This document shows, piece by piece, positions 3,599-24,475 of a stretch of DNA of 24,611 nucleotides. Source of the DNA: a virus; IMG/VR virus record IMGVR_UViG_3300010371_000343, positions 1-24,611 of that record; one strand, written 5' to 3'. The position numbers were made by a program, and so were the translations under genes. The stretch's first letter is position 1, and each line of letters starts with the position of its first letter. Under the pieces are notes generated by a model that worked only from the letters and a program-made list of their open reading frames with translations, did not search any database and was not told the DNA's origin.

Positions 3599-3728
3599 TA
3601 GGAGGCGCTCCTAAAATGAACCAAGCTATACGACGAAAAATGCGAATGCAAAAAGTTATAACAAGAATGTAAAAACCGACAATAAGGAGCATGCCTATTG
3701 CGCTTCCCAAGTAAGATAGAGCAAGCAT
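3567..3728 (-). CDS. 53-aa single-span membrane protein (small gene)
   Basis: An ATG at 3728 opens a 53-codon frame ending in TAG at 3567. It has a clear ribosome site (GAGGTG, four bases before the ATG) and lies just downstream of a near-consensus promoter, so the transcript leader would be only about ten bases. The protein starts MLALSYLGSAIG, continues with a hydrophobic span (about residues 4-28), then a basic stop-transfer stretch RIFRR (29-33) and a short polar tail. This predicts a single membrane helix. It overlaps the HNH start by 32 bases. It could be a holin-like or other host-membrane protein; with no adjacent endolysin the role stays open. AT-rich compared with its neighbours, suggesting it was acquired. 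Confidence 0.75.
   Translation of the reverse strand: MLALSYLGSAIGMLLIVGFYILVITFCIRIFRRIAWFILGAPPSGTKVMQKGS
3600..3612 (-). promoter_or_regulatory. Hairpin sequestering the HNH ribosome site
   Basis: On the minus strand AGGAG-CGC-CTCCT forms a 5-bp stem with a 3-base loop. The 5' arm is the Shine-Dalgarno sequence for the GTG start at 3598; the 3' arm ends one base before that start. The hairpin would block initiation unless opened, for example by ribosomes finishing the overlapping 53-aa gene. Confidence 0.6.
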
Positions 3729-3744
3729 AAAACACCTCATTTAT

Positions 3745-3773
3745 ATTGTATCTAAATATAAACAATATGTCAA
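3745..3773 (-). promoter_or_regulatory. Sigma-70 promoter (TTGACA-17-TACAAT)
   Basis: TTGACA (3773-3768) and TACAAT (3750-3745) are separated by exactly 17 bases of AT-rich sequence on the minus strand. The -35 hexamer is perfect and the -10 matches 5 of 6. The -35 overlaps the TGA stop (3772-3770) of the 599-aa gene. Predicted transcription starts near 3738, about ten bases before the 53-aa gene. I found no other match this good on the minus strand. Confidence 0.85.
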
Positions 3774-5569
3774 TCATTTGACTCTATTTTCGGGTTTAGG
3801 AGCCCATGCTTTTTCAAATAACCCTTGTTTAAATGATCCACAACAGTTTTACGGAGCGTCCTTAGTTGTTCTGCCCTGGTCTTATTTTCGTCGCCATACA
3901 TCGGCGTATTCTCATTCACTAAATGATTCAAGTCCCCAGAGCCTAAATTGGTTCCTTTCGTGGCGGCCGATAGCGCCGTCAATAGATTGCTTTTGGCTGC
4001 TGCATGCCTTCGCATTAGGTCCGTAGATACGCCATTTAGGGCAGCATCTGCGGCTTCTCCCGCCTCCGGGTGCCCGAAGATGCCACCAGCAACTCCGGCT
4101 AACCCGCTAACTGTTCCTTTTGCCTGGAGGAAGCCCCTCAGAGGCGCGCCACCCTCGTCTGTGATTTTCATTAAATCTTGATAAGCCTTATTGATATTTT
4201 TGAGACTCGCATCTGCGTTCACGGCTTGCGTATATTCCGCATTTAGCGGCCCATAATCTTCCGGCTGTTTCCTCGCCTGCAACGTAAACTGAATGTTTCT
4301 CAATTTCTGATCAGCATCTGGAGCTAGAATAGATTCCTGCAAAGGATGCTTTTGCTGCGGCTGTGTAGCATTAGCTCCCGTTCCCGTTGGCAACTGACCT
4401 TGGGGCTTCGCGCCGGGCATGACTTCCTGACCATTTAGCAATTTTTGTGTGGCCATAGACGAAGCCGCGTTTCGGGCGTCCATTGATTTAGCGGCGAAAT
4501 CGGCGGACAGCTTCTGATAATTGGCCCACGCCTGCGGGGTTCCCAGACTCAAAGCGACTTGCTTGGCCTTCCTGTCATAGATCTCAGCCATAGACGCGCG
4601 CGCAAGTTCCGAGGAAATTTTATCGTCTTGGAATAACTTGTCATATGCTCCGTAAACGGTTTTTTGATTCTCGAATCTTTGTTTCTGAGCATCAATGTTG
4701 CGGTCGATCTGCTTGTTAAGAAAATCAAAAGCGTAATTGTGTCCGCCGAAGGCAGAGGCCATGCCGCCGAGAGCGAGACCTATGGCCGTTCCAACCTTAC
4801 GCTCAGTGGACATGTTCTCTCGGTAGGCGTCCTCGTTTAGAGGATTTTTATCATTGTACGCCCTAAAGTCATTTGTGGCGTCATTGATCATTTGATTAGA
4901 TCGCGCCTGATGCTGGCTTATGGCGTTGGCCCTATCAACGGCTTCTTGTTCAATCGGCTGCATTAGCTGGGCTTGTTTAGCGTCTACATTTCGCTGAGTT
5001 TCCAACCCAGCTTGGCCCTGCTGAATCCCTTGCAGAGTTGCATTGGCCTGATTGCCCAATCCAGCTTGGGCGTAATTCGGTTCAGGAGCCTTCACTATCG
5101 GAACATCAGGAGTTGGGGCCGGGGCTGGTTGCGCTGCGGGCTGAGCATCGTCCTGAGAAATCGTTCCATTCGGCGGCCCTTCGTCGTAATGTGCAACCGC
5201 ACCGCCCTTAGCTAAGCCCTTCATTTTGGGCTTAACTGTCTTTTCAATCTCGGCCCGCCCCTTAGCCTCTGCCTTGGCGTTTCGCATGTGTGCGTCGTGT
5301 CCGCGCTGAGTCGGTTGCTTATTGGCTGTGCGGACATCGGAACCTTGTTCCGAAATACCATACTCATTCATGCCGTCATTGCCAGAATCGAGAACGTCGT
5401 CTGTTCGCGCGCCTACCTTACCGCCTCTCGCAAACTTCAATCGCTTGAGCTGTTCGCGCTGAATCTTCGGCAAAGCATAGGAGTAGATTGTCATCTTATG
5501 GCCCTTGGGGTGGATCAGGGTCACCGTTTTTTCATCTTCCTCTAGTTTCATCCAATCTTTGAGATTCAT
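3770..5569 (-). CDS. Putative internal virion (ejection-type) protein, 599 aa
   Basis: ATG at 5569 has AGGAG six bases upstream and starts two bases after the preceding gene. The N-terminal segment (about 14-52, HPKGHKMTIYSYALP then QLKRLKFARGGKV) looks like a small beta/helix module ending in the double-glycine motif F46-ARGG-KV; a second copy, LAKGGAV, is at 119-125. A Pro/Ala-rich linker (about 141-170) leads to a long Gln/Ala/Asn-rich helical region. Glycine/alanine-rich hydrophobic stretches at about 259-276 and 485-500 could insert in membranes. The C-terminal 100 residues are helical and basic. No enzyme motif is recognised. Size, composition and position between tail hub and fibre genes suggest an internal protein delivered with the DNA; this is inference. 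Confidence 0.6.
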   Translation of the reverse strand: MNLKDWMKLEEDEKTVTLIHPKGHKMTIYSYALPKIQREQLKRLKFARGGKVGARTDDVLDSGNDGMNEYGISEQGSDVRTANKQPTQRGHDAHMRNAKAEAKGRAEIEKTVKPKMKGLAKGGAVAHYDEGPPNGTISQDDAQPAAQPAPAPTPDVPIVKAPEPNYAQAGLGNQANATLQGIQQGQAGLETQRNVDAKQAQLMQPIEQEAVDRANAISQHQARSNQMINDATNDFRAYNDKNPLNEDAYRENMSTERKVGTAIGLALGGMASAFGGHNYAFDFLNKQIDRNIDAQKQRFENQKTVYGAYDKLFQDDKISSELARASMAEIYDRKAKQVALSLGTPQAWANYQKLSADFAAKSMDARNAASSMATQKLLNGQEVMPGAKPQGQLPTGTGANATQPQQKHPLQESILAPDADQKLRNIQFTLQARKQPEDYGPLNAEYTQAVNADASLKNINKAYQDLMKITDEGGAPLRGFLQAKGTVSGLAGVAGGIFGHPEAGEAADAALNGVSTDLMRRHAAAKSNLLTALSAATKGTNLGSGDLNHLVNENTPMYGDENKTRAEQLRTLRKTVVDHLNKGYLKKHGLLNPKIESND

Positions 5570-20237: not shown

Positions 20238-21728
20238 TCACCACTTGGACCATTCTGGAATTCCGCGCTTATCTTTACTCCACGCTCCAAAGTCAGATTT
20301 CCCGTCCCGCAGGTCCTTTTCACGCTTTACCTGTTCCATGGCGCTTTGAAGATGCTGTTCTTCCTGCTCTTTTAGGTACTCAGGAGTTCCGGGCTTTGGT
20401 TTGGTTGGGGGCGGAACGTATGCATAGGCTGGCGAGAGTTTGAATGCATAAAGGCATGAATCTACTGCATCAGAGTGCCCCTTGACCACAATCTTGTCGG
20501 GGGTGGACTTGTCGTCGTCCCGTTCCAAAATGTTGCAGTCTTGAGCAAAGCGGGAAGTCTTGCGCGCGCGAAAGATCCCAGTGCGAAGAGCATTGTTCAG
20601 GTGCTTATAGTTCGCCATCTTTTCGCGCTTGTCTGCGGCTTCGATCGGAAGACCGTACCTAGACTTTAAATCTTCGGCGATCTTTAAGCCCAAACCACCC
20701 GTATCTGTCGGCATCTTAGCAATCGGGTATTTCTTCATAAGATCTTTGATTAGCTTTGCGAGGTCGTCGGTTAATTGGTTTGGAATAACGATTTCTTCAA
20801 CCAGCCAGGTAACGGGAGACGAGTCTGAGAATGCGAGTAGCGATAGAGAGTCCGCGTCCCTAACCCCCAAGTCGATACCAAGTATGTATGTGAGCTTGCC
20901 TGTAGGAAGCTCCAGGAAATCATTAATTGCAGCATCGTAGAGCAAAAGGAGAGCGTTCGGATCGAGCTTCCACCGACCGAAGCACTCTCTTTGGATAGAC
21001 GGATCTTCAAGCGTGACACCCTTTCTTAAACAATCCTGGGCTATCAATTCGTCCGGAGTTTTTCCCGACTTCTTCTGTAACCATGGATTCTGGTGCATAG
21101 TCCAATGATGGTGGCTCCACTGTGCGGAATGACAACAGTCATAGTAGTACCCGCCGAGTACTGGACCAGGCGTGCCGATCATGCGACAACGCCCGTTCGT
21201 GTCGTAGAGTCGTTTCACGACAATATCCTCGACAAGCTCTTTAATGTGGGCGCGCATGGCCTGCGACTCGTCGAGATAGACCAGTGCTACATTCGAAAGG
21301 CCCCGGATCTTTTCTATCTCCGCTTCGTCATTGGCCCCAAAGAGGTAGATGGTGCTCCCGTTGGGAAGGTGGATTGAGAGCTTTACTTCATTGAACTTCG
21401 CGGGGATTGCATATTCTCTGCATATTTTTTTTAGTTCAGGCCAGACAATGCGCTCTGCACTTGTTCGGGCCAGAGTAATATAGCAACCGACAGTGCCAGG
21501 AAGAGAAAGAGCAGTATCGATAAGATCAGCCGCGCAGGCCGTCGTTTTTCCCGCTCTAACCGAACAGCATGCAGTGGCGTATCGCTCAGGGTCCCTGACA
21601 AATGCCAGCTGCTCGGCAAATAAGAACTTTTCGATCTCGAACTTCGGCGCCGTCTTTTGAACAAGCGACAGGGCATTCTTAACCCTTTGCCGTCTTTCGA
21701 GTATGCGAGCAGCTAGCTTTGCGTTCAT
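20238..21728 (-). CDS. terL: Terminase large subunit (packaging ATPase/nuclease), 496 aa
   Basis: ATG at 21728 begins two bases after the stop of the upstream gene. The ATPase domain shows Walker A as CCSVRAGKT (54-62), Walker B as ALVYLDE (148-154) with catalytic E154, and the coupling motif MIGTPG (183-188). The nuclease domain shows the RNase-H-like acidic residues D286 (LGIDLG), D342 (PTDTGG) and D420/D423 (GHSDAVD). All key residues are present and the length is normal, so the enzyme should be active. It translocates DNA into the prohead through the portal and cuts the concatemer. An HNH gene follows directly. The small subunit is not obvious; candidates are the proteins upstream at 22401-23554. 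Confidence 0.93.
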   Translation of the reverse strand: MNAKLAARILERRQRVKNALSLVQKTAPKFEIEKFLFAEQLAFVRDPERYATACCSVRAGKTTACAADLIDTALSLPGTVGCYITLARTSAERIVWPELKKICREYAIPAKFNEVKLSIHLPNGSTIYLFGANDEAEIEKIRGLSNVALVYLDESQAMRAHIKELVEDIVVKRLYDTNGRCRMIGTPGPVLGGYYYDCCHSAQWSHHHWTMHQNPWLQKKSGKTPDELIAQDCLRKGVTLEDPSIQRECFGRWKLDPNALLLLYDAAINDFLELPTGKLTYILGIDLGVRDADSLSLLAFSDSSPVTWLVEEIVIPNQLTDDLAKLIKDLMKKYPIAKMPTDTGGLGLKIAEDLKSRYGLPIEAADKREKMANYKHLNNALRTGIFRARKTSRFAQDCNILERDDDKSTPDKIVVKGHSDAVDSCLYAFKLSPAYAYVPPPTKPKPGTPEYLKEQEEQHLQSAMEQVKREKDLRDGKSDFGAWSKDKRGIPEWSKW

Positions 21729-22790: not shown

Positions 22791-23271
22791 TAATTAGAGA
22801 GACTTTGCGGGCGGACTTCCTTTCTTGCTTTGCCGCCTTCTTGGCCAATGCATTCTGTTTAGCTTGTTCATCGGCAATCGCTTGGGCCTTCTTGACCCGC
22901 TCATTGTGTTCTCTCTGGAGCTTCGCTTTAACTTCCTGATCCATGGTCCAGGTCATTGCATTGGCAATCGACTTGTAAAGCACCTTGCTAATCTGGCGGA
23001 CCGTAATGGTGTTCACTTCATTTTCAAGGTGGTGGATGTAGCCGGCGAAAACCTTCCTGATCGAGTCATCAAAGGGAAGGGGCGGGACGAACTCATTGAC
23101 GCAACGTTCAATAAAAGCCTCAAAGCCTTCACGGGTCACGGGCATCAGCACTTCGTCGTCGATTCCGCAGGTTTTGTACTTGTCCACCTCACCGCGGGGC
23201 TTGTCGAAGAAGCTCACTTGATCTTGAGCCAAGACCTCATCGATTTTGATCACTTCAGGCTGTTTTTCCAT
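22771..23271 (-). CDS. Hypothetical protein with basic helical tail, 166 aa
   Basis: The start at 23271 is chosen because AAGGAG lies nine bases upstream; an ATG eight codons earlier would place that site inside the gene. The first 40 residues are acidic; residues about 65-125 (VNEFVPPLPFDDSIRKVFAG, then HHLENEVNTITVRQISKVLY) look like a compact helical domain. The last 50 residues are a long Lys/Ala/Glu-rich helix. The gene overlaps both neighbours. I do not recognise the family. A packaging or DNA-binding role is only suggested by position and the basic tail. Confidence 0.6.
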   Translation of the reverse strand: MEKQPEVIKIDEVLAQDQVSFFDKPRGEVDKYKTCGIDDEVLMPVTREGFEAFIERCVNEFVPPLPFDDSIRKVFAGYIHHLENEVNTITVRQISKVLYKSIANAMTWTMDQEVKAKLQREHNERVKKAQAIADEQAKQNALAKKAAKQERKSARKVSLINGANRT

Positions 23272-23554
23272 TTGGTTGTTCTCCTTGTTTTGCAATTGCT
23301 TCTAATTTGTCGGTGTCGAGTTTGTCTAAGGCCTTGAGTTCATCGTCTTTGATTTTCTTCAATAAACTCATATAGGTAGAAAGGTCTTTGGCTTCTTCTT
23401 CGCAGAGTTTTCCGCGGAAAGATTTATCCAGGAGCCAGTTGGCCTCACGCTTGAGAACTGTGAAAAACTTCTGTTCCAGGAGGTCAAAATCGACCGCAGC
23501 GAGCCGTCTAGAGCGGTCTCTTGGGCGCTTTTTGGCTGTTTCGGAGCTGTTCAC
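23255..23554 (-). CDS. Hypothetical helical protein, 99 aa
   Basis: The start is GTG at 23554, the first coding base after the long structured gap, making this the first gene of the packaging-head operon. The N-terminus is basic (AKKRPRDRSRRL), followed by a mostly helical body (FDLLEQKFFTVLKREANWLL, then DLSTYMSLLKKIKDDELKAL), which could form a coiled-coil oligomer. Size, basic arm and location make it another candidate for a small terminase-type protein, but no helix-turn-helix is evident. It overlaps the following gene by 17 bases. Confidence 0.55.
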   Translation of the reverse strand: MNSSETAKKRPRDRSRRLAAVDFDLLEQKFFTVLKREANWLLDKSFRGKLCEEEAKDLSTYMSLLKKIKDDELKALDKLDTDKLEAIAKQGEQPNGKTA

Positions 23555-23630
23555 ACCGCTATTTAGTCACCAAAAGCGTGCTGAAGTGAACAATTTTCTA
23601 CCTGGAATGTAAGATTTTGGACGAAAGAAC

Positions 23631-23700
23631 CCCGGGGCGCTGAGGTGCCAGAGAAGTTGCGAGTCCTCGCCGGCCGTAGATAACCCCAGCACACCCCGGG
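23631..23700 (-). ncRNA. Structured RNA element 2 (long two-part stem)
   Basis: On the minus strand CCCGGGG (23700-23694) pairs with CCCCGGG (23637-23631). After a small internal loop, GCTGGGGT (23690-23683) pairs with ACCTCAGC (23646-23639), including one G-U pair that would be an A-C mismatch on the plus strand. Inside is a GCGA-GGAC-TCGC hairpin (23670-23659), with GCC/GGC able to enclose it. The 3' side runs into GTTCTTTCG, a weak T-rich tract. It could be a terminator, an ncRNA or a protein-binding packaging signal. Confidence 0.5.
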
Positions 23701-23797
23701 TGAGTGAGAACCTTCATGGTGAAAGGCTAATATTGTGTCGGAAAGGACGCGAATTATCTTGAGTCGGGGAATGTTTCTAGATTCTCAATAGGAATGT

Positions 23798-23880
23798 AAA
23801 AAGTCTCCCGTGGTAACACTTCGGCTTCCGCCAGTATCCGAGGACTACCATCGCGCGATGGCCCTCAACCCCCCACGGGA
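23798..23880 (-). ncRNA. Structured RNA element 1: 75-nt three-way junction plus U-tract
   Basis: On the minus strand, helix P1 is TCCCGTGG (23880-23873) with CCACGGGA (23813-23806). After GGGG, P2 is TTGAGG (23868-23863) with CCTCGG (23843-23838), including two G-U pairs, and it carries hairpin P3, CCATC-GCGC-GATGG (23861-23848). P4 follows without a linker: ATACT (23837-23833) with AGTGT (23820-23816), including one wobble, then GGC-GGAA-GCC with a GNRA-type loop. Two bases later P1 closes. GACTTTTTAC follows at once. The G-U pairs and GNRA loop favour the minus strand. It begins 11 bases past the 113-aa gene's stop, so termination is one role; the elaborate fold suggests more. Confidence 0.6.
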
Positions 23881-23890
23881 AACAACAAAA

Positions 23891-24232
23891 TCAATCTTTA
23901 GGCTCTGCCTGAGAGCCTGCCACGATTGGGCCCGGCTGTTCTAAGCCATTCAAAACTGCGGCCGCATAAAGTTTAGCGGAAAACTCTGTCGCGCCTTGAT
24001 CGCGGATTGTCTCCAAAGCGCTCTTGTATCTTTTGGCCTCAGAGTTTAGCGCCTCATAGGCCGCGTACTCGATGACGTGGACGTGCTTATCATAGAACTC
24101 TTTTCGGCTCTCTTCTGCATAACCAGCATGATAGTCCATTTGCTCTTTATCGTATGCCCATTGTCCGCGATTCTGTGGAAGCATATTGTTCTGGTTATAA
24201 CAAATGATCCACCATTCTTTCACGCCCTTCAT
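23891..24232 (-). CDS. Hypothetical protein, 113 aa
   Basis: ATG at 24232 has AAGGAG nine bases upstream, within the end of the preceding gene. The N-terminal third is Trp/Gln/Asn/Tyr-rich (EWWIICYNQNNM); the middle (RKEFYDKHVHVIEYAAYEAL, then EAKRYKSALETIRDQ) is helical. No catalytic motif or membrane span is apparent and I do not recognise a family. It is the last gene before the structured gap, and its transcript would end at structured element 1. Confidence 0.6.
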   Translation of the reverse strand: MKGVKEWWIICYNQNNMLPQNRGQWAYDKEQMDYHAGYAEESRKEFYDKHVHVIEYAAYEALNSEAKRYKSALETIRDQGATEFSAKLYAAAVLNGLEQPGPIVAGSQAEPKD

Positions 24233-24238
24233 GCGAAT

Positions 24239-24475
24239 CTACTCCTTCTCGCGTTCAAACTCAGCATTGGCGATGTCCTGGATCAAGCGGACCTTTAGCT
24301 CTGAAATAGCAAGACGTTCCTGATCCAACTCAGCCATTCTGTCGTTAGGCTTCAATAACACCGAATAAACCATGGTTGGGTAGGATGCATAGATAGCAAA
24401 GACTTGTGTCCTTGTGTCGCATTCAGGCGCTCTCCATGGCATCTTGACGATGAATTTGAACTCCTTGTCTTTCAC
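24239..24475 (-). CDS. Hypothetical protein, 78 aa
   Basis: The start is GTG at 24475, overlapping the upstream gene's TGA in a GTGA arrangement typical of coupled translation. The N-terminal half (KEFKFIVKMPWRAPE then QVFAIYASYPTMVYSVLL) suggests a small beta domain; the C-terminal half (ELKVRLIQDIANAEFEREKE) is a charged helix. No family is recognised. It is six bases upstream of the next gene. Confidence 0.55.
   Translation of the reverse strand: MKDKEFKFIVKMPWRAPECDTRTQVFAIYASYPTMVYSVLLKPNDRMAELDQERLAISELKVRLIQDIANAEFEREKE

Follow-up and report, generated by a model that had tools for sequence, protein, structure and literature searches.

A branched, terminator-like RNA fold upstream of a phage packaging operon

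INTRODUCTION

In intrinsic (Rho-independent) terminators, a GC-rich stem, capped by a loop of few bases, is followed by a U tract. These elements are found on the coding strand, just past a stop codon, at the boundary of a transcription unit. Under the TransTermHP annotation rule, the limits for canonical terminators are a loop of up to 13 nt and a stem-loop of up to 59 nt (PMC12207403). Note that this is a rule of annotation, not a mechanistic requirement. The distance to the stop codon can also matter. In work on tR2, translating ribosomes were shown to repress a terminator that lies 5-6 nt past a stop codon, with more than 27 nt required for full activity (PMC4824070).

A second system for comparison is the pRNA of phage phi29. 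This RNA contains a three-way junction, has a loop that is self-complementary, and is found near packaging genes. Its partner is the gp16-type packaging ATPase.

Here, we describe an RNA fold with features of both systems. It lies in the window, by which we mean the whole stretch of 24,611 nucleotides analysed (IMG/VR record IMGVR_UViG_3300010371_000343). The record is a 24.6-kb virus fragment, and the start of the transcription unit upstream of the fold is beyond its visible end. A preliminary description, made from the sequence, had offered three readings of the element: a phage non-coding RNA, a packaging-related RNA or site, or an elaborate terminator. It assumed that ordinary terminators consist of a single hairpin. 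This holds for the usual case, but a branched structure need not be something other than a terminator. We consider it likely that the element acts as an intrinsic terminator whose apical domain is unusually large and branched. It would close off the upstream gene pair (24475-23891) and insulate it from the packaging operon (23554 to terL). As in described intrinsic terminators, a GC-rich stem and then a U tract are found on the coding strand, just past a stop codon, at a unit boundary. In contrast, a branched domain of 59 nt takes the place of the loop of few bases and, at 81 nt, the stem-loop is larger than the usual annotation limits (PMC12207403).

RESULTS

The fold is located directly behind a gene, upstream of the packaging operon

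Coordinates of the main features are listed in Table 1. All nearby genes are on the minus strand. Downstream of the element, the operon has the order g1, g2, g3, a GNAT-like gene, g5 and terL; the g3 product gives a weak helix-turn-helix match. The intergenic gap, of 336 nt, is noncoding and GC-rich. It holds the element and, on the same strand, a second strong fold, and both are retained when the whole gap is folded. The second fold (23706-23626) may represent a leader structure or a weaker terminator in tandem. A simple scan of the minus strand, in and just upstream of the gap, found no consensus sigma-70 promoter. Within the gap, the minus strand carries three copies of the motif ACATTCC (23604, 23768 and 23791), compared with five matches window-wide on both strands. 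These repeats could be a candidate regulator binding site.

Table 1. Features at the locus, with positions numbered from the first letter of the window
Feature	Coordinates	Strand	Basis
Three-way-junction RNA, terminator-like	23803..23883	(-)	Minimum free energy (MFE) -40.1 kcal/mol, z -4.0 (bounds widened once the fold was known), 1/2000 shuffles
U5 tract touching P1	23798..23802	(-)	Sequence; sole qualifying stem-T5 on minus strand of window
Upstream co-directional gene, 113 aa, no family match	23891..24232	(-)	ORF list; no PHROG/Pfam match; AAGGAG shortly 5' of ATG
Second upstream co-directional gene, 78 aa, no family match	24239..24475	(-)	ORF list; PHROG/Pfam
g1, 99 aa, first packaging-operon gene	23255..23554	(-)	Homologues directly upstream of g2 in L123, L002, L230, L231
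terL, terminase large subunit	20238..21728	(-)	phrog_2, E 2.5e-36
Second strong fold, then UUCUUUCG	23626..23706	(-)	-42.7 kcal/mol, z -4.0, 4/2000 shuffles; terminator-like match 23646-23629

The folded structure at 23883-23803, on the minus strand, is real. As in the preliminary description, a three-way junction is followed by UUUUU. In the MFE fold, the closing stem, P1, pairs GUUUCCCGUGG with CCACGGGAGAC (23883-23873 with 23813-23803), with pair probabilities of 0.99-1.00. Hence, P1 has 11 bp rather than the 8 bp first described, which omitted the outer pairs GUU/GAC. It is these pairs that reach the U tract. P1 is GC-rich, in direct contact with UUUUU (23802-23798), and starts 7 nt past the stop codon of the 113-aa gene, on the same strand. 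Above P1, the remaining 59 nt of the 81-nt stem-loop are branched. One arm, P2+P3, has 5+6 bp and the loop GCGC. The other, P4, has the GGAA loop and 3-bp part originally reported, with a further 6 bp in place of 5 bp. Linkers at the junction, previously given as 4, 0 and 2 nt, are 5, 0 and 1 nt in the MFE fold, which includes five G-U pairs and not three.

A stem adjoining T5, rather than stability, is the exceptional feature

The corrected 81-nt core folds with -40.1 kcal/mol, and only one of 2000 dinucleotide shuffles was as good; the z-score of -4.0 is somewhat flattering since the bounds were widened once the fold was known. For the same core, the plus strand reached only -28.2 kcal/mol (z -2.6). 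With the 83 nt originally delimited, the z-score was -2.7, and 19 of 2000 shuffles folded equally well. When the whole window was scanned in 83-nt segments, the element was within the top few fold clusters, and not first. Hence, stability by itself does not set the element apart. The combination of the stem with T5, at the end of a gene, does. P1 is the sole minus-strand stem in the 24.6 kb that adjoins T5 and has 7 bp or more, including six or more G-C pairs. It is on the coding strand and just past a stop codon, which favours a terminator. In shuffles of the gap, a stem of at least 11 bp next to T5 was seen in 0.1% of cases.

We think it very unlikely that a GC-rich gap has simply folded by accident. 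The window-wide rank, in the top few only, is what chance might give, and the fold is kept by no relative. However, accident would not readily explain a stem-T5 combination so rare in shuffles, nor the recurrence of an analogous one in a related locus, L231 (see below).

The RNA fold could instead be a by-product of inverted repeats at a site that works as DNA, such as a replication origin, packaging site or operator region. The gap is noncoding, GC-rich and upstream of the terminase genes. It carries ACATTCC three times on one strand and, in relatives of the L128 type, the matching gap has a conserved dyad. Even so, we regard a DNA-level site as highly improbable. Because of the G-U pairs, the fold is far more stable as minus-strand RNA, and a U5 tract is not expected of a DNA site. 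Moreover, the L128 dyad is not related to the element in sequence, and its position between promoters is that expected of an operator.

Homologues of the element are not detected in relatives

The preliminary description had proposed an Rfam scan and a covariance search of related gaps as checks. Neither found a family or a homologue. In Rfam, the element had no match, either at the gathering score or with E relaxed to 5. A search for tRNA or tmRNA returned none, and blastn against phage and plasmid records gave no match beyond chance. Exact-match scans of IMG/VR (with the palindrome, the P4 hairpin and the P1-U junction) and of GTDB genomes (with P4) produced chance-level matches only; hits were judged by covariance model where locus sequence existed for scanning. 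Searches with TerL led to more than 60 loci and a search with g2 led to L230 and L231. A search for relatives of the 113-aa upstream gene found none, and neither did a terL search of GTDB genomes. We applied a one-sequence covariance model, R1, to the window, 52 terL-related loci and three g2 loci. Only the window scored above noise. That the corresponding gaps of relatives are without the element speaks against a conserved essential RNA.

These results bear on whether the element is a discrete small RNA of ~80-90 nt. Such an RNA would have its own promoter, or be released by cleavage from the upstream transcript's 3' end, with the closing stem as terminator and the branched body as regulator. 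The compact fold, far less stable on the plus strand (z -4.0 versus -2.6), is consistent with this, as is the second strong fold ~100 nt downstream on the same strand. On the other hand, no homologue was found by Rfam, blastn or covariance model. With 7 nt to the stop codon, any promoter would fall inside the upstream gene, and the simple scan found no consensus sigma-70 promoter on the minus strand within the gap or immediately before it. We conclude that a discrete small RNA is unlikely.

The corresponding gap in some relatives contains terminator-like elements or promoters

In many terL loci there is a gap between genes at the matching place, 1.3-2.2 kb upstream of terL. L231 has g1, g2, g3, GNAT, g5 and terL in common with the window (41-50% identity). 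In its gap, behind a co-directional gene, CCGCCCG (370-376) pairs with CGGGCGG (418-424). This all-GC stem of 7 bp has an apical region of 41 nt, in which branching is not convincing, and is directly followed by TTTTT. No other stem-T5 of this kind exists in the 6.3-kb locus, and 0.4% of shuffles of the gap give one. Note that the L231 element is unrelated to ours in sequence; the two are analogous in build and place. In the L168 gap there is an ordinary hairpin with T6. Conversely, some relatives count against the terminator reading: L123 and L002 have no gap at this place, while L230 and L150 have the gap and no stem adjoining T5.

Promoters are also found here. Consensus sigma-70 promoters occur in the matching gap of several other relatives, just 5' of the first gene of the operon. 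Relatives of the L128 type have divergent upstream genes, with consensus promoters again present in the gap. Such promoters fit a transcription-unit boundary. From the contents of these gaps, both terminator-like elements and promoters, the place is predicted to be a transcription-unit boundary in the family, with a sequence that turns over quickly.

Other aspects of these gaps are as follows. Two consensus sigma-70 promoters, ~100-140 bp apart, are present in L128 (4164-4300), L140 (1553-1710), L149 (4101-4280) and L151 (4166-4315). In all four, only ~6-8 nt separate the end of the second -10 box from the ATG of the first gene, a spacing that suggests a leaderless mRNA. Just past the first promoter is a conserved AGTAATACGCC...GGCG dyad (L128 4209, L136 4196, L140 1599, L147 2816, L149 4147 and L151 4211). 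Its 5' side is invariant and its fold z-scores are mostly weak; an operator seems a better fit than an RNA. We considered the TTAGTAATACGCC dyad of the relatives as a counterpart of the element and rejected it: the sequence is unrelated, folds are weak in most members and it sits between promoters. In the gap of L150, a near relative, a multi-branched fold (3642-3780, plus strand; z -3.4, 0/200 shuffles) without a U tract ends directly before a strong sigma-70 promoter.

A role in packaging is not supported

Like phi29 pRNA, the element belongs to a phage, lies near packaging genes, and combines a three-way junction with a loop that can pair with itself. Unlike phi29 pRNA, it has no Rfam match (to the phi29-type family or any other, under the thresholds above), and U5 immediately follows the RNA. 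Furthermore, the phage packages with an ordinary large terminase of phrog_2, not a phi29-type ATPase, and no homologue of the element was found in any relative. A packaging-related RNA is therefore unsupported. The preliminary description had also suggested that two molecules could kiss through the GCGC loop of P3, which is within a perfect 14-base palindrome. By chance, one in 16 perfect hairpins with a 4-nt loop is such a palindrome. Since the loop is at chance level, and the 14-mer is present in more than 100 IMG/VR stretches, this argument is weak. There is only the slightest probability that the element is a stand-alone small RNA with a three-way-junction body, freed when transcription terminates at its closing stem, and with a function in packaging or in the control of late genes.

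Termination may be sensitive to translation

Of the readings first proposed, the elaborate terminator is the one that fits best with the anatomy and with the analogous stem-T5 at the same operon boundary in L231. On these grounds, termination is the most likely function, and the element appears to have an uncommon shape and an ordinary role. Mechanistically, RNA polymerase leaving the upstream genes would transcribe P2/P3 and P4, which probably fold early. Their folding could draw both arms of P1 together. The 11-bp P1 would then close right behind polymerase pausing on UUUUU, and the transcript would be released.

Other considerations weigh against a terminator. The 81-nt stem-loop and its 59-nt apical part go beyond the limits for canonical terminators. 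By analogy with tR2, ribosomes that translate to a stop codon so near can repress termination. Also, so elaborate an apical domain is unneeded for termination. With only 7 nt between the stop codon and P1, a ribosome finishing the upstream gene could delay P1 formation. Hence, termination may depend on translation of that gene, as the tR2 work implies.

If the element does terminate transcription, then a natural terminator can bear a branched domain of ~59 nt as its loop. Standard annotation rules would overlook branched terminators of this type, in which termination could be coupled to a structured 3' end or made to respond to translation. Otherwise, the element marks an ordinary transcription-unit boundary.

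The packaging operon is mosaic. L230 and L231 are closer to the window in g3 and GNAT (48-52%) than in TerL (41%). For L122, L123 and L150, TerL is 67-75% identical to that of the window; the L122 sequence stops 435 bp upstream of terL. Genes for tRNA-Asn(gtt) occur in two related phages, L185 (1338-1412, minus strand) and L127 (11676-11749, plus strand), one of them inside the matching gap.
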